DNA of 41,298 nucleotides, from positions 1 through 41,298 of the forward strand of contig JAHDSB010000006.1 of the NCBI GenBank assembly GCA_018433015.1, given 5' to 3'. Of the stretch, positions 7,339-15,074 are shown piece by piece. Every line of letters begins with the position of its first letter. Within the stretch, counting starts at the first letter, position 1. A model generated the notes under the pieces. It worked only from the letters and a program-made list of their open reading frames with translations, made no database searches and had not been told where the DNA came from. The stretch is from Clostridia bacterium. GTDB lineage: Bacteria; Bacillota; Peptococcia; DRI-13; SV3-B141. A program made the translations under genes and the position numbers.

Positions 7339-7655
7339 ATATTTCCGTCCTTAGTCACCCTATTAAATCATATGTTTACTAAAACAATTATACATTGATT
7401 AAAATGCAATGGCAAAACTAAACTTTTACTGAAAAAATATAATCAGAGTCATAGCCTAACAGTTGAAAAAGACTATCTTGCAATCAGTTTAGACATTATG
7501 GCTGTAGCGATAAAACGAGAAGTATCAGAAGTATCCCTGCTCTACCGAAACTGATCCCACAGCTTGACACAATAAAGGGGCGGACAGTAATCACTGTCCG
7601 CCCCTTACAGGGTTTTTTACCTATGGTTCAAATTTGTATGCGAATTTTTTATATA
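7339..7655. other. Gene-free stretch with a possible coding relic
   Basis: 317 bases between the S41 gene and the M20 gene. The left part must hold the leftward promoter of the S41 gene, but no hexamer pair was convincing. A plus-strand frame is open at 7399-7554 (51 codons to TGA). It ends in a coding-like stretch, AISLDIMAVAIKREVSEVS, yet has no start with a ribosome-binding site and no family I recognise. A terminator hairpin occupies 7575-7606. Confidence 0.4.
7575..7606 (-). terminator. Intrinsic terminator of the M20 amidohydrolase gene
   Basis: A perfect 14-bp GC-rich stem (7575-7588 with 7593-7606, AAGGGGCGGACAGT and its complement) closes on a 4-base loop. Fifty bases past the leftward stop at 7656; on the minus strand it is followed by TTTATTG, a modest T-tract. 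Confidence 0.75.
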
Positions 7656-8819
7656 TTATTCACTGAGGTAATCTAAAGCATATTGGGCGTACAGAGCTGT
7701 ACCATACTCCAGAGCATCTTCATCGATATTAAAATTAGGATGATGGTGAGGATAATTTGCCTGTTTGGCTGGATTTCCGCAACCTACTAAAGCTAAGACA
7801 CCGGGAGCTTTCTCCATAAAGTAGGAGAAATCCTCGCCTCCTGTAACTTTCTCAAATAGAGCAACGCCCTGTTTTCCCATAATTTTTTCCACAGCTTTAG
7901 CTGCTCTGGCAGAACTTACTTCATTATTTGTAACATCGGGAGTACCATAAATATATTCCAGCTCAGCCTCTCCACGATAACTTTTGGCGGTGTATTCAGC
8001 AATACGTTTAATCATTTCCGGCATAGCTTTTCTCACTTCAGGATTAAATGTTCTTACATTACCTTCTAAAATAGCATCTCCTGGCAGAACATTAAATCTA
8101 GAACCTGCTTTTAATAGACCAATGCTGACAACAGCAGGATCAAGAGGATTAATCTCTCTGCTAACGATGCTTTGCAAGTTCATAACAATAGCGGACGCTA
8201 TTACAGCTGCATCTACACCCTGGTGTGGTGCGGATCCGTGTCCACCTTTACCCTGGATTTTTATTTTGATAATATCCGTAGCAGCCATTCTGGGACCAGC
8301 TTCTACAGAGATCTTCCCAACTTCCAGGGGAGACCAAAGGTGCATACCAAATACTTCGTCTACACCCTCCATAACACCTTCATCAATCATGATTTTTGCA
8401 CCTAGAGCTACTTCCTCTCCGGGTTGGAAAAAGAGCTTAACTGTACCTTTAAGCTGGTCTTTCATTTCATTTAAAATTTTAGCAGCACCTAACAGCATAG
8501 CAGTATGTCCATCATGACCGCATCCATGCATATAACCTTCATTTTGTGATTTATATTCTACATCGTTCTGTTCCAGTAATTCTAAAGCATCCATATCGCC
8601 CCGCAAACCCACAGTTTTTCCGGGTTTTGCTCCTTCAACTGTCCCTACTACAGCAGTTTCACCTACAGTAATATAAGGTACACCTATCTTATCCAATTCT
8701 TCTTTAATTCTCTTAGATGTCCTGTACTCCTTCAAGCTAGGTTCAGGATTCATGTGAAACTCTCTGCGCATATCAATGACATACTGCTTATACTTGTTTG
8801 CCAGACTTTTTGCTTCCAT
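7656..8819 (-). CDS. M20 family amidohydrolase (N-acyl amino acid / hippurate hydrolase type)
   Basis: A 387-aa metal-dependent hydrolase of the M20D group, which cleaves N-acyl or conjugated amino acids such as hippurate or indole-acetyl amino acids. Visible motifs: GLRGDMDAL, then MHGCGHDGHT with the metal-binding Cys and His (about residues 100-110), FFQPGEE (about 133), FGMHLWSP (about 160), the dimerisation-domain GGHGSAPHQGVDA, and the C-terminal GGEDFSYF and YPHHHPNFNID. I start at ATG 8819 (MEAKSLANKY), preceded by AAAGAAGTG. The open frame extends 20 codons upstream to 8879, but that stretch is Lys/Ile/Phe-rich, runs toward the terminator and is absent from family members. It is third in the leftward group after the AllC-like hydrolase and the transporter, behind a terminator-like hairpin. 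The exact substrate cannot be read from sequence. Confidence 0.92.
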   Translation of the reverse strand: MEAKSLANKYKQYVIDMRREFHMNPEPSLKEYRTSKRIKEELDKIGVPYITVGETAVVGTVEGAKPGKTVGLRGDMDALELLEQNDVEYKSQNEGYMHGCGHDGHTAMLLGAAKILNEMKDQLKGTVKLFFQPGEEVALGAKIMIDEGVMEGVDEVFGMHLWSPLEVGKISVEAGPRMAATDIIKIKIQGKGGHGSAPHQGVDAAVIASAIVMNLQSIVSREINPLDPAVVSIGLLKAGSRFNVLPGDAILEGNVRTFNPEVRKAMPEMIKRIAEYTAKSYRGEAELEYIYGTPDVTNNEVSSARAAKAVEKIMGKQGVALFEKVTGGEDFSYFMEKAPGVLALVGCGNPAKQANYPHHHPNFNIDEDALEYGTALYAQYALDYLSE

Positions 8820-8886
8820 TTTTAACACTTCTTTCTTTAGAATTTTATATTTAAAAATTTTTTCAAATTTTATTTTCAAAATAAAA

Positions 8887-8925
8887 GCCGCTTAATCCCC
8901 GCTTTTTCAAGGGGTAATAAGCGGC
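8887..8925 (-). terminator. Terminator or attenuator between the transporter and M20 genes
   Basis: GCCGCTTA (8887-8894) pairs with TAAGCGGC (8918-8925), and an inner CCCC/GGGG pair (8897-8900 with 8911-8914) extends the stem. On the minus strand it is followed by TTTTATTTT. It lies 12 bases past the transporter stop at 8938 and 67 bases before the M20 start, so it can end the transcript or lower expression of the last gene. Confidence 0.8.
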
Positions 8926-8937
8926 GCAAAACCTAAA

Positions 8938-10119
8938 TTACAGAAGTTTTACAAAGAAACCGGCCAACACAACGGAAGTAATTGTTACAGTTGTAAAACC
9001 ACCCACTAACATTTGGGGCACGGTGTGACTTGCTATATATTCATATTCTTCATCATTTTCCGCAACAGATTTAGCTGCCTCAATAGTTAGAATATAATCT
9101 GCCGGGAATCCATATAAAGCTGTCATAGCAATAGAAAAAGCCATTTCCTTAGAGTATCCTAACAATTTTCCAACGAGCATGGACATAATCCCCATCCCAA
9201 TTAGCCCAATAATTATCAGACCAAATAAAGGTAAAGCTATTTCAGCCAGCATACTTGGAGTTGCTTTGGCCAGATTGGCAAAGATAAAAGCCATTAAAAC
9301 CGTCATCAGATAACCAAAAGCTCCAGCCTTATTAAGGGCCCGATCTTCCAGAAAACCAATTTCCCTACCAATAACACCAAATATTAAGCATACCACAAAC
9401 TCATTAACATGTATATAAGGAGATACTACAGTAGCTAACCAAGCTATAAAACCAAGCTTTAGAAGAATAACATAAGAGGTCTGGTATCTTTCAGGTAAGG
9501 GAGGGAAAATTCTCATCTTACTTACCTTTTCCTCAGAAGTAGCGGCAACAGCTGTAGCAGCTGCGGCTTCGCCGTTACGGAATTTCTCCACAAGCCTTTT
9601 ACCTTCTTTTTTTAACAAGAGGGCTGTAACAGGATAACCAAAAAATCCCTGAGTAATATATACAGAAGTTGCCAGAACAGCAACAGTAGTAAGTCCTCTT
9701 TCTGTAGCTGCAGTACTCATTAAAATTGATGCCACAACACCACCAGATAGGGGAGGTGTACCGGCAATAACCATTTCCCAACCAAAAAGCACTCTACCTA
9801 AAGTTAAGGCCGTAACACAAATTCCTACTACCCCTGCCATAGCTATTAGTACAGTCCTCCACTGACTTAATAACTCTCGTACACTCATCAAAGTACCCAT
9901 ATGGGTCAAGAGTAAATACATGGACATATACACTACCGGTGTAGCAAAAGAAGCCTGAGTAATAATATCCGGGGGTAAAACGGTCCAAAAACCAATTAGA
10001 AATAAAACAGCTGAAACGAATACTGAAGGAACGAAAGCTTTCGTTTTAATAGATACTATTTCACCAACTGTTAAAATAAATAAAATAATAGCAAATGCAG
10101 CAACAACGCTAAATTGCAT
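8938..10119 (-). CDS. Uncharacterised multi-pass membrane transporter-like protein
   Basis: A 393-aa protein with about 10-12 hydrophobic segments in two halves, separated by a cytoplasmic, charged, Ala-rich loop of about 50 residues (about 165-215, beginning LLLKKEGKRLVEKF). Each half has a glycine-rich break in a membrane segment (TPPLSGGVVAS at about 120; GFPADYILTIEAAK at about 345), as in inverted-repeat secondary transporters such as ESS/GltS-like families. I do not recognise the exact family; DUF3100-type neighbours of amidohydrolases came to mind, but its N-terminus does not fit what I recall. Spacing to the upstream AllC-like gene is 23 bases, so they are surely co-transcribed. By context it imports the substrate of the M20 hydrolases or exports a product; this is inference. 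Confidence 0.8.
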   Translation of the reverse strand: MQFSVVAAFAIILFILTVGEIVSIKTKAFVPSVFVSAVLFLIGFWTVLPPDIITQASFATPVVYMSMYLLLTHMGTLMSVRELLSQWRTVLIAMAGVVGICVTALTLGRVLFGWEMVIAGTPPLSGGVVASILMSTAATERGLTTVAVLATSVYITQGFFGYPVTALLLKKEGKRLVEKFRNGEAAAATAVAATSEEKVSKMRIFPPLPERYQTSYVILLKLGFIAWLATVVSPYIHVNEFVVCLIFGVIGREIGFLEDRALNKAGAFGYLMTVLMAFIFANLAKATPSMLAEIALPLFGLIIIGLIGMGIMSMLVGKLLGYSKEMAFSIAMTALYGFPADYILTIEAAKSVAENDEEYEYIASHTVPQMLVGGFTTVTITSVVLAGFFVKLL

Positions 10120-10142
10120 GTTTTCACCTTCTTTTAATATTT

Positions 10143-11387
10143 TTAATCTTTAACAGTGACAGACATATCTAGTACTGTCTGGAGTACTATTTCCACCCCC
10201 TTCTGGAGGTCAGCATAATCAGTCCACTCTTCTGGGCAATGACTTCGCCCGTCTTTGCTGGGCACAAATACCAATCCCACTTCGGTAATACCGGCCATTA
10301 TCATAGCATCATGTCCGGCTCCACTAAGCATAGTTCTTTCAGAGAAACCTAGCTTTTTACAGTTTTTCTGAATGCTGTTGATAATGTCTTGTGATAATTT
10401 AACAGGTTCTACTTGCAACATTTCAACTATTTCATAATTTGCTTCACTGCCTTGAGTTTCCTTTTTAAGGGCTTCTTGAATGTCTCTGTATACCTTATTT
10501 ATACATTCTGTACTTTTAGACCTTATATCCACTGTAAAGGTAACTTCTTTAGGCACTATATTAGCTGCCCCCGGCATCACCTGTAAAACGCCAACAGTGG
10601 CAACTGTGCCCTCACCGGCATTAACAGCAAATTCACTGATACGTCCTATTACCCGGGCCGCAGCATCCAATGGATTAGCGCGCATATCCATTGGAGTTGT
10701 ACCGGCATGATCCGGCCTGCCTCGCACTATCACTTTAAACTCATGAATACCAACAATATAATCTATAATACCGATATCTTGCTTATTTTTTTCTAATACC
10801 GGTCCTTGCTCAATATGCAGTTCTATAAAACACTTTAAATCTTTAGGATTCCTTTGAGCTTGAGCTATTTTTTCGGGATCAAAGCCAAATTCCTGCATGG
10901 CTTCATACATAGCTATACCATTTTCATCTTTATTATTTATTAGTTGATCTTTTGTAACTTTTCCTGCCATAGCTCTACTGCCGAAAAGTCCTGCGCCAAA
11001 TCTGCCGCCTTCTTCTTCAATCATGGCTATTATTTCAATAGGATGTTTTGTTTTTATATTATTCTCCTTTATTACCCGTGCTGTTTCTAAGGCAGCTATA
11101 ACACCGGCCGGCCCATCAAAATTACCTCCATGTTTTACTGAGTCAAAATGTGAGCCCACCATAACAACAGGAGCATTTTTTTCTGTACCTTCAATTCTGC
11201 CTATTATAGTAGCGGCATCATCTTCATATACTTTCAGACCTATGGCTTTCATTTCAGCTTTTAAATACTCCCTGGCTTTCCTATCCGCCTGGGAAAAAGA
11301 AAATCTAGTAAGCCCTAAATTAGGAGTATCATTACATTTGGCTAGTTCCTCAATATCTCTTTTTATCCTTTGCAATTGAGTTTTCAT
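10143..11387 (-). CDS. M20 hydrolase of the allantoate amidohydrolase / N-carbamoyl-L-amino acid hydrolase family
   Basis: A 414-aa dizinc amidohydrolase of the AllC/HyuC/beta-ureidopropionase group. All the metal-ligand motifs are present in order: GSHFDSVKHGGNFDGPAG (His and Asp, about residues 78-95), IEEEGGRFG (about 125), LHIEQGPVLE (about 190) and SHCPEEWTDYA near the C-terminus. The dimerisation domain has GRPDHAGTTPMD and the active-site loop MLSGAGHDAM is intact. Family members hydrolyse ureido groups of allantoate, ureidoglycine, N-carbamoyl amino acids or beta-ureidopropionate, releasing ammonia and carbon dioxide; motifs alone do not separate these. It is the first gene of a leftward operon, directly opposite the PucR-type regulator with which it shares overlapping promoters (11452-11501). 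No allantoinase, hydantoinase or dihydropyrimidinase is present in the window. Confidence 0.9.
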   Translation of the reverse strand: MKTQLQRIKRDIEELAKCNDTPNLGLTRFSFSQADRKAREYLKAEMKAIGLKVYEDDAATIIGRIEGTEKNAPVVMVGSHFDSVKHGGNFDGPAGVIAALETARVIKENNIKTKHPIEIIAMIEEEGGRFGAGLFGSRAMAGKVTKDQLINNKDENGIAMYEAMQEFGFDPEKIAQAQRNPKDLKCFIELHIEQGPVLEKNKQDIGIIDYIVGIHEFKVIVRGRPDHAGTTPMDMRANPLDAAARVIGRISEFAVNAGEGTVATVGVLQVMPGAANIVPKEVTFTVDIRSKSTECINKVYRDIQEALKKETQGSEANYEIVEMLQVEPVKLSQDIINSIQKNCKKLGFSERTMLSGAGHDAMIMAGITEVGLVFVPSKDGRSHCPEEWTDYADLQKGVEIVLQTVLDMSVTVKD

Positions 11388-11451
11388 AACTTCTAACCTA
11401 CCCTTTGATTAGTTTATGATCATTTAATTCTATTGTATAACAATTAAAATA

Positions 11452-11480
11452 TTGACGTTTTATAGTATATCAATTATAGT
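11452..11480 (+). promoter_or_regulatory. Sigma-A-type promoter of the PucR-like regulator
   Basis: TTGACG (11452-11457), a 17-base spacer and TATAGT (11475-11480); transcription would start near 11487, about 80 bases before the TTG start codon of the regulator. It overlaps the opposing promoter at 11473-11501. Confidence 0.65.
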
Positions 11481-11501
11481 TAATTTAAACTATATTGTTA
11501 A
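11473..11501 (-). promoter_or_regulatory. Sigma-A-type promoter of the M20 hydrolase operon
   Basis: On the minus strand TTAACA (11496-11501), a 17-base spacer and a consensus TATAAT (11473-11478). Transcription would start near 11466. The -10 elements of the two divergent promoters share the same bases, so RNA polymerase cannot occupy both at once. Confidence 0.7.
11475..11494. promoter_or_regulatory. Palindromic operator candidate in the divergent promoter region
   Basis: TATAGTT - 6 bases - AACTATA is a perfect 7-bp inverted repeat. It covers the plus-strand -10 and start region and the minus-strand -10 to spacer. The placement is what one expects of a binding site through which the divergently encoded regulator controls itself and the hydrolase operon; binding is inferred, not shown. 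Confidence 0.5.
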
Positions 11502-11565
11502 CACCAGAATTATATATATTTTTTTGTTGTGTTAACTAAATTCGTTAAATATTAAGGTGATAATA

Positions 11566-13368
11566 TTGCAAAAATACCTAAATAAAATTCAGAGACAACA
11601 AGCAATTCTCAATATTTCAGAGCTCCTTAATTCCACCCAGGAAACCAGCTATATCCTGCAAGCCTTATTAAGCCAAGCCTTAAAATATATTAAGGGTGGC
11701 GATGCAGGTATAATCTTTTTATATAATGAAAAAAAAGGCTATTTGGAAGTTCGTTCTTATGTTGGCTTTGATAAAGAAGTAATAGCCGTAAAACTTAAAC
11801 CTAATGAATCTATTACAGGGATATCCTTTGCTAGAAAAGAACCTCTGCTTTTTGATAATCCTCAGGATATACAAATTACAACTGCTACCATGAGAAAAGA
11901 TAACCAAAAAATAATTAAAAATACTTATGAAAATCTCTTCCCTCAAATTTATAGCACTATTGCCTGTCCCTTAATATTTCAAGGTAAATGCATGGGTATT
12001 ATAGTTGTTGATAATTTCACCCAAGATAATCCTTTGACTCAAGATGATCTAGATTTCTTAAAAGCCATATCTATCCAGGCAGCAATTGCAGTAAACAATG
12101 CTATTAATTACGAAAAAGAACTCAAAAACAATATGAATTTACAGTTTTCAACTAATCTTCATAATAAATTTACTGCCATGGTACTAGAAGGATGTACGAT
12201 TCAAGATATAATCAAGGAACTATCTCTGTTATTAAACAGAGATATCGTTATTGTAGATTTATTTTTTAATATTAAAAATTACATTTTAGAAAGGGACTTA
12301 TCTTATACATTATTGAAAAAACTGCAAATCTCCATCTCTCAACAGTTAGATATCCTTAATCCTACTGTTTATAAAATATCTAATACAGACACCAGTTTGT
12401 TTCTTTACCCTATCATAGTTAGTAAAAGTCCTTTGGGATGGCTTGGTATTATATCTCATTCCCAACTAGACTCGGAAATGGATAACATTACTATCGAACG
12501 TGGTATAACAACCCTGGCTTTGGAACTCCTTAAAGATAGAGAAATGCAAGAAATGGAACAGAAATTAAAGGGCGATTTTCTGGATAATTTAGTAGAAAAT
12601 CAAGACGAAAATTATTTACTAAAATGCTGCCGACACTATGGTTATGACACTAATAAGGAACACCAAATTGCCGTGCTGGATCTGAAACATTCTTTTTCTA
12701 ATGAAAATAATCATGTTTATGATGTAGAGTTTATTAACTGTCAGAAAAAACTATATGACTATCTGTCCAAAGAGTTCATAAAGTATTTTCCAAATACTAT
12801 TTCAATTATTAAAGGCTATAATATCATTTATATTTTGGAATTAAATAAAACTACTAAAAGTCATCTTTCCAAAAACACTATTGAACATATCTTAAACTCT
12901 GAGCAAGTAAAGCACATTGTTCATGATAAGATTAATGGTTATGCTGTGGGGATCAGTAATCCCTTTCAGGATATCTCCCATTTTAAACATTCCTATTCAA
13001 ATGCCTTTCAGGCCCTAAAAATTGGGAAACAAATCGCTGGCCATAATTTTGTTAACTTTTATGATGACTTAGCTATAAAGAAGCTGCTTTTAAATAATCA
13101 TCCGGAAGTTTTAAAAGACTTTGTGGAAAAAACTCTAGGGAACCTTCTTAATTATTCCAAAAACTCCCGCAATGAATTTCTCGATACCCTCATTATTTAT
13201 ATAAAAAGTAACGGTAACTGGTCTTATACCAAGGATCAATTACACATCCACGGTAATACTTTAAGCTACCGTTTAAAACGAATTGAAGAAATATTAAAGT
13301 TAAAACTCAACAACTACAACCACAGGCTTAAAATACAAATAGCCCTGGATATCTTAGAAATACTGTGA
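11566..13368 (+). CDS. GAF and PucR/CdaR-type transcriptional regulator
   Basis: A 600-aa cytoplasmic regulator. Residues about 15-175 form a GAF sensor domain (GDAGIIFLYNEKKGYLEVRSYVG; IACPLIFQGKCMGIIVVDN). The middle (about 320-480) looks like the degenerate GGDEF-like domain of CdaR/PucR proteins. The C-terminus carries the PucR helix-turn-helix: FLDTLIIYIKSNGNW, IHGNTLSYRLKRIEEIL. Family members sense metabolites and switch catabolic genes for purines, sugars or amino-acid derivatives. The start is TTG 11566: the strong Shine-Dalgarno AAGGTGAT (11554-11561) is 4 bases before it, whereas the upstream in-frame GTG at 11557 lies inside that site. It is divergent from the M20 operon and followed, after a terminator, by the NhaC-type transporter, so it is the natural controller of this module. 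Confidence 0.9.
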   Translation: MQKYLNKIQRQQAILNISELLNSTQETSYILQALLSQALKYIKGGDAGIIFLYNEKKGYLEVRSYVGFDKEVIAVKLKPNESITGISFARKEPLLFDNPQDIQITTATMRKDNQKIIKNTYENLFPQIYSTIACPLIFQGKCMGIIVVDNFTQDNPLTQDDLDFLKAISIQAAIAVNNAINYEKELKNNMNLQFSTNLHNKFTAMVLEGCTIQDIIKELSLLLNRDIVIVDLFFNIKNYILERDLSYTLLKKLQISISQQLDILNPTVYKISNTDTSLFLYPIIVSKSPLGWLGIISHSQLDSEMDNITIERGITTLALELLKDREMQEMEQKLKGDFLDNLVENQDENYLLKCCRHYGYDTNKEHQIAVLDLKHSFSNENNHVYDVEFINCQKKLYDYLSKEFIKYFPNTISIIKGYNIIYILELNKTTKSHLSKNTIEHILNSEQVKHIVHDKINGYAVGISNPFQDISHFKHSYSNAFQALKIGKQIAGHNFVNFYDDLAIKKLLLNNHPEVLKDFVEKTLGNLLNYSKNSRNEFLDTLIIYIKSNGNWSYTKDQLHIHGNTLSYRLKRIEEILKLKLNNYNHRLKIQIALDILEIL

Positions 13369-13393
13369 AATTATATTTTTTGTTCACTATTTC

Positions 13394-13427
13394 AAACAGT
13401 CTATTCGCTTAAACGAATAGACTGTTT
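13394..13427 (+). terminator. Intrinsic terminator after the PucR-like regulator
   Basis: A perfect 14-bp stem (AAACAGTCTATTCG at 13394-13407 with its complement at 13414-13427) and a 6-base loop, 25 bases past the stop. The T-tract (CTTTA) is weak, so termination may be partial. The following gene-free stretch to 13643 holds the promoter region of the NhaC-type gene. Confidence 0.75.
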
Positions 13428-13558
13428 CTTTACTGAGCATATGGCAATAGAACGGAATATATTTTCTAAAAGTATTCGTTAATCAAAACACTTATTTTAC
13501 CAGTTAGCATAAAATTTATTCCTATAATACCTAATTTTACTTATTTATCAGCATTTTT

Positions 13559-13590
13559 GCAATAATTAATAAATTAGGCATAATTATTGC
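13559..13590. promoter_or_regulatory. Inverted-repeat operator candidate upstream of the NhaC-type gene
   Basis: Perfect 10-base arms GCAATAATTA (13559-13568) and TAATTATTGC (13581-13590) with a 12-base spacer. The right arm overlaps the -35 hexamer of the promoter at 13587-13615, a position suited to repression or activation. Its sequence differs from the palindrome at 11475-11494. Confidence 0.5.
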
Positions 13591-13615
13591 TACTTATAAA
13601 TATATGTTCTAATAA
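13587..13615 (+). promoter_or_regulatory. Promoter of the NhaC-type transporter gene
   Basis: TTGCTA (13587-13592), 17 bases, TAATAA (13610-13615). A start near 13622 would give a leader of about 22 bases holding the AAGGAGGG ribosome-binding site (13629-13636). Confidence 0.5.
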
Positions 13616-13643
13616 TTATGACTAATTTAAGGAGGGATTGTTT

Positions 13644-15074
13644 ATGGAATACGGTATTTTAAGTATCATACCACCGATTATTGCCATTGTTTTGTCAATT
13701 TGGTCAAAACAAGTATTTATCTCCTTGTTTGCTGGAATTCTATCAGCAGAGTTCATAATGACCAACTTTAGTCCTCTGATGGCTCTAGGTAATTCTATCG
13801 ATGGAATTGTCAATGTTTTCGCAGAAGATTGGATAACTAAAACCATTATGTTTTCCTTTTTAGTTGGTGCTATTATAACCATGATTCAAGCCTCAGGAGG
13901 AGTTACCGGATTTATTGATTACCTAACTAAAAAAACCAAAACTATTAAGAATAAAAAGGGAGCAATGTTATTGTGTTATATTACCGGTATAATTATCTTT
14001 ATAGAATCCTCCATAACTATACTAGTATCGGGAGTTGTAGCTCGTCCTCTTACCGATAAATATAAGATCTCCAGAGAAAAACTTGCCTTTATTTGCGACT
14101 CCACATCTGCTCCTGTCTGTGGACTGATACCGTTAAATTCGTGGGGTGCAACACTTATTGGGCTACTGGGAGTTCAAATTAGTGCAGGTGTTCTTACAGG
14201 TAATCCTGTAGAAATCTTGATAAAAAGCATACCCTATGAGTTTTACTCTATAGTAGCCCTACTATCAGTGTTATATTATATCTTAACTGACAAAGATTGG
14301 GGCCCTATGAAAAAAGCAGAAGAAAGGGCTAGAACTACAGGGCAAGTATTGCGTGAAGGGTCTGTACCCCTTGTCTCAACAGACGCTACTGATGTACCAG
14401 TTAAAGAAGGGGTTAAACCCGATATGATGAATATGCTCTTACCTTTGATCGTCCTTATTGTTATGATGCCCATTAGCCTTTACGTTACAGGAGAGGGTAA
14501 TATCATGCAAGGCTCAGGTTCCACTTCTGTATTCTGGGCTGTATTAACTTGTTTACTGTTTTGTGCCGTTTATTATATGTCCAAGAAAATAATGACTCTT
14601 AATGAATTCATGCAGTATTTATACAGTGGTATCGGCAGCATGGTCCCTGTTGCAACAATACTAATATTTGCTTTTGCTATAGGAAATTCCATTTCAGCCC
14701 TTGGTACGGGTGAATATATGGCAAGTCTAGTTCAAGGAAGAATAAGCGGAACACTAGGACCTGCCATAATATTTATTCTAGGCGGTATTATTGCTTTTTC
14801 TACCGGTACAAGCTTTGGGACATTTGCAATATTAATTCCTATAGCTATGCAAATGGCAGTGGCTATGGACGCTAACATTTATGCCAGTGCTGCAGCCGTT
14901 ATTTCAGGCGGTATCATGGGCGATCACTGTTCTCCCATATCAGATACAACAATTATGGCCTCTATGGCCTCGGCCTCAGACCACATTGATCACGTTAAGA
15001 CCCAATTACCATACGCTCTACTATCCGGTTCCATAGCTTTTGTACTGTACATTTTAACCGGCTTTCTGATTTGA
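13644..15074 (+). CDS. NhaC-family sodium/proton antiporter-like transporter
   Basis: A 476-aa membrane protein with about 11-12 hydrophobic segments. The NhaC family is recognised by the segment with two acidic/serine-rich motifs (IIFIESSITILVSGVVARPL, about residues 115-134; SAPVCGLIPLNSWGATLIG, about 156-174) and the late signature GGIMGDHCSPISDTTIMAS (about 428-446). Members exchange Na+ for H+, or, like MleN, couple ion exchange to an organic anion. The start is ATG 13644, 8 bases after GGAGG; an in-frame TTG at 13638 is only 2 bases from it. Position beside the regulator suggests it works with the M20 hydrolases, either importing a substrate or handling sodium; this is inference. It converges with the next gene with only 7 bases between the stop codons. 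Confidence 0.88.
   Translation: MEYGILSIIPPIIAIVLSIWSKQVFISLFAGILSAEFIMTNFSPLMALGNSIDGIVNVFAEDWITKTIMFSFLVGAIITMIQASGGVTGFIDYLTKKTKTIKNKKGAMLLCYITGIIIFIESSITILVSGVVARPLTDKYKISREKLAFICDSTSAPVCGLIPLNSWGATLIGLLGVQISAGVLTGNPVEILIKSIPYEFYSIVALLSVLYYILTDKDWGPMKKAEERARTTGQVLREGSVPLVSTDATDVPVKEGVKPDMMNMLLPLIVLIVMMPISLYVTGEGNIMQGSGSTSVFWAVLTCLLFCAVYYMSKKIMTLNEFMQYLYSGIGSMVPVATILIFAFAIGNSISALGTGEYMASLVQGRISGTLGPAIIFILGGIIAFSTGTSFGTFAILIPIAMQMAVAMDANIYASAAAVISGGIMGDHCSPISDTTIMASMASASDHIDHVKTQLPYALLSGSIAFVLYILTGFLI

Follow-up and report, generated by a model that had tools for sequence, protein, structure and literature searches.

A recurrent carrier and M20 hydrolase gene module in a Clostridia bacterium, with a proposed role in the import of N-blocked hydrophobic amino acids

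What is taken up and broken down by a locus in which two M20 hydrolases accompany a membrane carrier without a named family is the question raised by this stretch of a Clostridia bacterium genome (assembly GCA_018433015.1, contig JAHDSB010000006.1). The window, that is, the whole stretch of DNA analysed, is 41,298 nucleotides long, and the five open reading frames of interest were all confirmed as real. The reverse strand encodes a carbamoylase/allantoate-group M20 hydrolase (10143–11387, hereafter the ErtE-like enzyme), the carrier (8938–10119), and an M20D amidohydrolase of the YxeP/IAA-amino-acid hydrolase/CpsA type (7656–8819), for which the ATG at 8819 is a more likely start than the TTG at 8879 that opens the reading frame. 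On the forward strand lie a divergent GAF-PucR type regulator (11557–13368), which may alternatively start at the TTG at 11566, and a neighbouring NhaC-type transporter (PF03553; 13638–15074). The sequence-only reading had proposed that these genes form a catabolic module which would be expected to recur in other genomes.

Recurrence was assessed in the best 80 carrier loci in named genomes among the matches listed, obtained with the carrier alone as query; this set is biased to closer relatives, with at least 48% identity. A gene was counted as linked when tblastn placed it no more than 4.5 kb from the carrier and in the same orientation. By this measure, M20D adjoins the carrier in 78/80 loci and the ErtE-like gene in 49/80; either hydrolase is present in 79/80 and both in 48/80, so that M20D is the only hydrolase beside the carrier in about 30 loci, and the carbamoylase-type enzyme the only one in 1. 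The latter arrangement, without M20D, is also that of two alphaproteobacterial plasmid loci, and in Enterococcus faecalis the carrier is accompanied by M20D only. Most of the 80 loci belong to Bacillota, with others in Synergistota, Aminicenantes and one Lokiarchaeota MAG, and the carrier is present in 85 of the 395 genomes of one order. The genes are closely packed, with median gaps in relatives of 26.5 nt between carrier and ErtE-like gene, −4 nt between ErtE-like gene and M20D, which usually overlap, and 43.5 nt between carrier and M20D. Their order is ErtE-carrier-M20D in the window and in its order relative L042, and carrier-(ErtE)-M20D in most other loci. The predicted co-occurrence was thus found, and the gene neighbourhoods support a recurrent module of carrier, M20D and carbamoylase-type enzyme. 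In six loci (L105, L108, L111, L099, L102 and L107), an inserted OsmC-family gene separates the carrier from the ErtE-like gene.

Both hydrolases belong to broad families. The ErtE-like enzyme belongs to TIGR01879 (446 bits, cut-off 204) and exceeds the cut-off of PRK09290.1-5 as well (534 bits, cut-off 399); its top PDB match is the L-carbamoylase 3n5f (E 3.6e-98), and the metal-site motifs GSHFDS, FDGPAG, EEEG, ELHIEQ and RSHCPEE are kept. Two exact identities were rejected, as the score is 447.7 bits against the ErtE model (NF058540, cut-off 520) and 299 bits against the allantoate deiminase AllC (TIGR03176, cut-off 597.75). M20D belongs to TIGR01891 (382.9 bits, cut-off 153.75), resembles YxeP (PDB 1ysj, E 5.5e-87) and contains the motifs GCGHDGH, PGEE, GMHL and HHHP, while the CpsA carboxypeptidase (NF040868) was rejected as its exact identity (409.4 bits, cut-off 500). 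In the tree, 92 carrier-linked M20Ds group in one clade (support 0.96), to which the window M20D belongs and from which all five of the own-genome paralogues included are absent; 10 further carrier-linked M20Ds fall outside it. Families of this breadth do not point to one particular cap for either hydrolase.

The similarity to AllC, together with the PucR-type helix-turn-helix of the regulator, could suggest ureide or purine catabolism, with the enzyme acting as an allantoate amidohydrolase and PucR answering purine breakdown products. We regard this as highly improbable, given that the AllC score reaches only half of the equivalog cut-off, that the closest solved structure is an L-carbamoylase, that M20D is the only hydrolase in about 30 of the best 80 carrier loci, and that the T-box leaders treated below indicate amino acids. 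In addition, the open reading frames of 4–19 kb, all of which were read and eight of which were scanned with Pfam, include no recognisable ring-opening enzyme and specifically no cyclic amidohydrolase, in agreement with the sequence-only reading, which had noted this absence.

The carrier had been described from the sequence as an unrecognised transporter, and this description holds: the product of 8938–10119 has no Pfam, NCBIfam or PDB-sequence match, and hence falls outside every named family. A Pfam scan of 58 family members gave zero matches, PF03616 and PF03390 included, and in the public records examined the protein is a hypothetical protein or, once, DUF819. The latter family was rejected, its profile match being weak and partial (P 7e-4 over 106 columns); the DUF819 annotation, to which this match lends little support, is that of the carrier in Enterococcus faecalis (L156:7986-9185). 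An AlphaFold2 model made with 58 homologues as input (pLDDT 88.5, pTM 0.84) has the Na+/citrate carrier CitS as its top Foldseek match (E 3.9e-5, TM 0.63), ahead of Na+/H+ exchangers, and the best CitS chains reach TM 0.60–0.63. In hhalign comparisons, its profile aligns collinearly with that of GltS across 356 columns (P 2.8e-6), and there is a further match to 2HCT (P 1.1e-5), whereas NhaC, used as a control, gives P 0.12. Because of the CitS match of the model and the collinear GltS and 2HCT profiles, the carrier is best described as a predicted distant relative of the Na+-coupled elevator carriers CitS/2HCT and GltS/ESS. It is not filed as an ESS or 2HCT member, because the Pfam test failed and because GGXG was not found in both re-entrant loops: the first hairpin keeps an invariant GG, whereas the second has GFP instead. 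GltS and CitS themselves share topology, and no GltS structure existed (PMC12344293).

The neighbours of more distant carriers (23–46% identity) are varied. Several adjoin Xaa-Pro-dipeptidase-like amidohydrolases, gamma-glutamyltransferase, or PatB-like genes together with M20D, and others have no obvious amide-cleaving gene adjacent. That distant carriers, too, have enzymes for amide-bond cleavage as neighbours counts in favour of the reading preferred below. The pairing with Xaa-Pro-dipeptidase-like enzymes, as well as M20D proteins that score close below the CpsA carboxypeptidase model (409–425 of 500), would fit a module whose substrates, taken up and then cut, are dipeptides or other small peptides and not N-acyl or N-carbamoyl amino acids. 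We consider this unlikely, since the carbamoylase-type enzymes of TIGR01879 are not known to act as peptidases, and since the fold of the carrier is one known for small organic anions.

The amino acid that is released can be approached through RNA leaders in relatives. Rfam T-boxes lie directly 5' of the carrier-M20D pair in four loci, L093:8715-8951 (124.7 bits), L262:1217-1453, L085:8691-8925 and L288:1194-1427, and the ErtE-like gene is missing from all four. The specifier was read at model positions 91–93, calibrated on T-boxes of known genes in the same genomes, which gave AUC for ileS, UCC for serS, UUC for pheS, GCA for alaS, UGG for trpS, UAC for tyrS, CUC/CUU for leuS and CUC for leuA (we presume these gene names from reading the N-termini). 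At this position, L093 and L085 carry CUC (Leu), L262 carries UUC and L288 UUU (Phe), so that C/U changes in the specifier switch between Leu and Phe codons. Since folding of stem I alone was not significant, the specifier rests on alignment to the Rfam model. The specifier loop of the four carrier leaders is non-canonical, without AGUA/GAA, as is that of the leuA leader L347, which reads CUC. Two bases upstream, positions 89–91 give Tyr codons in all four carrier leaders; a Tyr reading is possible and less likely, and the leaders suggest that Leu or Phe is released in the relatives that carry them. A remnant T-box, with its middle deleted and its terminator kept, is found at about 8860–8960 of L084. 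ThiC/TPP riboswitches upstream in L084, L085 and L093 were set aside as thiamine-gene elements ahead of a separate T-box. The window itself contains no T-box, and no riboswitch was found at the gathering threshold between 5 and 17 kb.

These leaders bear on the possibility that the module belongs to an N-carbamoyl-glutamate pathway, a side branch of ergothioneine or histidine metabolism, in which the enzyme would be a functional ErtE. ErtE is indeed its second-best model, glutamate carriers are among the distant relatives of the carrier, and the relatives L059 and L154 lie near histidine-degradation genes. However, the score stays below the ErtE cut-off, a histidine-gene neighbourhood was noticed in those two loci only, and the T-box codons are not those of Glu, which makes this pathway quite improbable. 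A similarly small chance is given to the idea that the carrier does not import the substrate at all and that its role is to export or exchange the freed amino acid or the cap: the direction is not readable from sequence, but starvation-driven T-box control would make export counterproductive.

The reading that we prefer, with a probability of roughly 0.55, is that the module imports N-blocked hydrophobic amino acids and unblocks them inside the cell, where each hydrolase probably acts on different caps. As a predicted elevator-type secondary transporter with the broader ESS/2HCT fold, the carrier would bring in N-acyl, N-carbamoyl or dipeptide-like amino acids; M20D and the carbamoylase-type enzyme would each strip a different cap class in the cytosol, and a hydrophobic amino acid (Leu, Phe) would be set free by cap removal. 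This reading draws on gene linkage, family placement, the operator with its spacing, and the T-box leaders of relatives; from it we infer the transport direction, the coupling ion, the substrate class and the amino acid released in this organism. An N-blocked amino acid, as the earlier reading had supposed, is the substrate class with the best support. That reading had also left the two hydrolases to act either in sequence or on two classes of conjugate. Either hydrolase can be found as the carrier's sole partner, which makes it unlikely that they must act in sequence; action in parallel on different caps fits better and is probably the case. A wider claim, which we put forward tentatively as slightly short of an even chance, is that the carrier is the first member of a family, so far undescribed, within the ESS/2HCT superfamily that imports N-blocked hydrophobic amino acids, each member with its own cytosolic cap-remover, and that in some bacteria is T-box-induced by Leu or Phe starvation.

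In the window, control would instead lie with the divergent regulator, whose product shows HTH_30 (PF13556, 62.5 bits), GGDEF_2 (34.4 bits) and GAF domains and belongs to the PucR type. A divergent PucR gene lies within 1.5 kb upstream of the carrier module in 12/80 of the best loci, while in the other loci the regulators are sigma-54 activators or none was recognised. Where the regulator is linked, the region upstream of the operon contains a motif, TTGGTGTTANCAAYATRG, first spotted by eye. Scored by a leave-one-out matrix in 16 regulator-linked loci against 96 others, it is high in the former (Mann-Whitney p 5.6e-10, a value that is partly circular because some of the scored loci had served to define the motif); one unlinked locus, L105, also carries it. 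Among six held-out loci with the regulator, five have the motif (L266, L270, L285, L289 and L290, of which L266 and L290 possibly come from genomes identical or nearly identical to those of earlier loci) and L284 lacks it, and at the 20-nt spacing it is absent from all regulator-free loci of the held-out set. In the window, the predicted operator CTGGTGTTAACAATATAG is at 11490–11507 on the reverse strand, the sole match in its own genome with at most one mismatch, and an extended −10, TGA-TATACT, recognised from sequence and promoter alignment at 11464–11472 (reverse strand), serves the hydrolase-carrier operon. In most sites, that of the window included, the extended −10 follows exactly 20 nt past the operator, which would centre the latter near −41, where class II activators bind. 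The regulator would probably sense an effector and activate the operon by binding CTGGTGTTAACAATATAG, which lies immediately 5' of the promoter; we favour activation over repression. According to a review that cites Beier 2002, PucR activates when the PucR box is upstream of −35 (PMC10242094). A regulon beyond this locus was considered and dropped, the two-mismatch hits in the own genome (12 against 5 in the control) being too near to tell. Membership of the regulator in the module, as supposed earlier, therefore stands in part: since the operator is conserved at a fixed distance from the −10, the regulator is supported as a genuine partner where it is present, but this concerns a minority of loci.

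Transcription of the window genes may be subdivided by hairpins. An intrinsic terminator with a 14-bp stem of 9 GC pairs (7575–7606, reverse strand, fold z −5.8) lies 3' of M20D, and a terminator-like hairpin (8887–8925, reverse strand, fold z −3.0), followed by TTTTATTTT, occupies the gap between carrier and M20D. The latter weakens the case for expression of the window genes as a single operon; it is possibly an internal attenuator, and because of it the expression of M20D may be in part separate from that of the ErtE-like and carrier genes. Another hairpin with a 14-bp stem (13394–13427, no strand assigned, z −5.5) separates the regulator from the NhaC gene, which is therefore probably a separate transcription unit. 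The NhaC transporter had been counted in the module, and this part of the proposal was given up: an NhaC gene is near the carrier in 3/80 of the best loci, and its nearest relatives (64–79%) occupy other sites in four genomes, with one Halanaerobium having it next to the carrier. One close relative elsewhere adjoins what we take, by reading, to be a D-cysteine desulfhydrase-like gene; the own-genome paralogue, 69% identical (G000:C41, L161, 4670–6100), lies between genes that we likewise presume to be PatB-like and Met/Cys-lyase-like, and is possibly a sulphur amino acid transporter. With two close relatives beside enzymes of sulphur-amino-acid type, the NhaC gene is judged to be an unrelated neighbour.

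Several known systems invite comparison. AbgA-AbgB-AbgT is a p-aminobenzoyl-glutamate utilisation system, and the present module resembles it in that a carrier is encoded with M20D-type amidohydrolases and an amide-linked amino acid would be imported and cut in the cytosol. It differs in the carrier, which has an ESS/2HCT-like fold and is not AbgT by Pfam, and in the addition of a carbamoylase-type enzyme and PucR. The carrier shares its predicted fold and collinear profile with GltS (ESS) and CitS (2HCT), from which it is set apart by the missing Pfam match and the GFP hairpin. The ErtE-like enzyme is like HyuC (e.g., 3n5f) in its TIGR01879 score and metal-site motifs, but its locus has no recognised hydantoinase and links it to a carrier and M20D. 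The regulator has the C-terminal helix-turn-helix of Bacillus subtilis PucR but differs from it by the N-terminal GAF domain, by a pathway-specific single site, and by a locus in which purine genes were not recognised. No description of the module, of its carrier or of amidohydrolase genes under T-box control was found in the open literature searched, from which most subscription papers are absent. The T-box and operator evidence leads to specific predictions, namely released Leu or Phe, a regulator site at 11490–11507, and the carrier fold; if they are true, a new transporter family could be named, together with a route by which gut and environmental bacteria reclaim capped amino acids. Elsewhere in the same genome, other M20Ds (L164, L165, L166 and L167) adjoin AbgT-like, NhaC-like and TRAP-like carriers, with the presumed AbgT-like genes, named by reading, at L164 and L167, and these pairings form a general theme of carrier and M20D.
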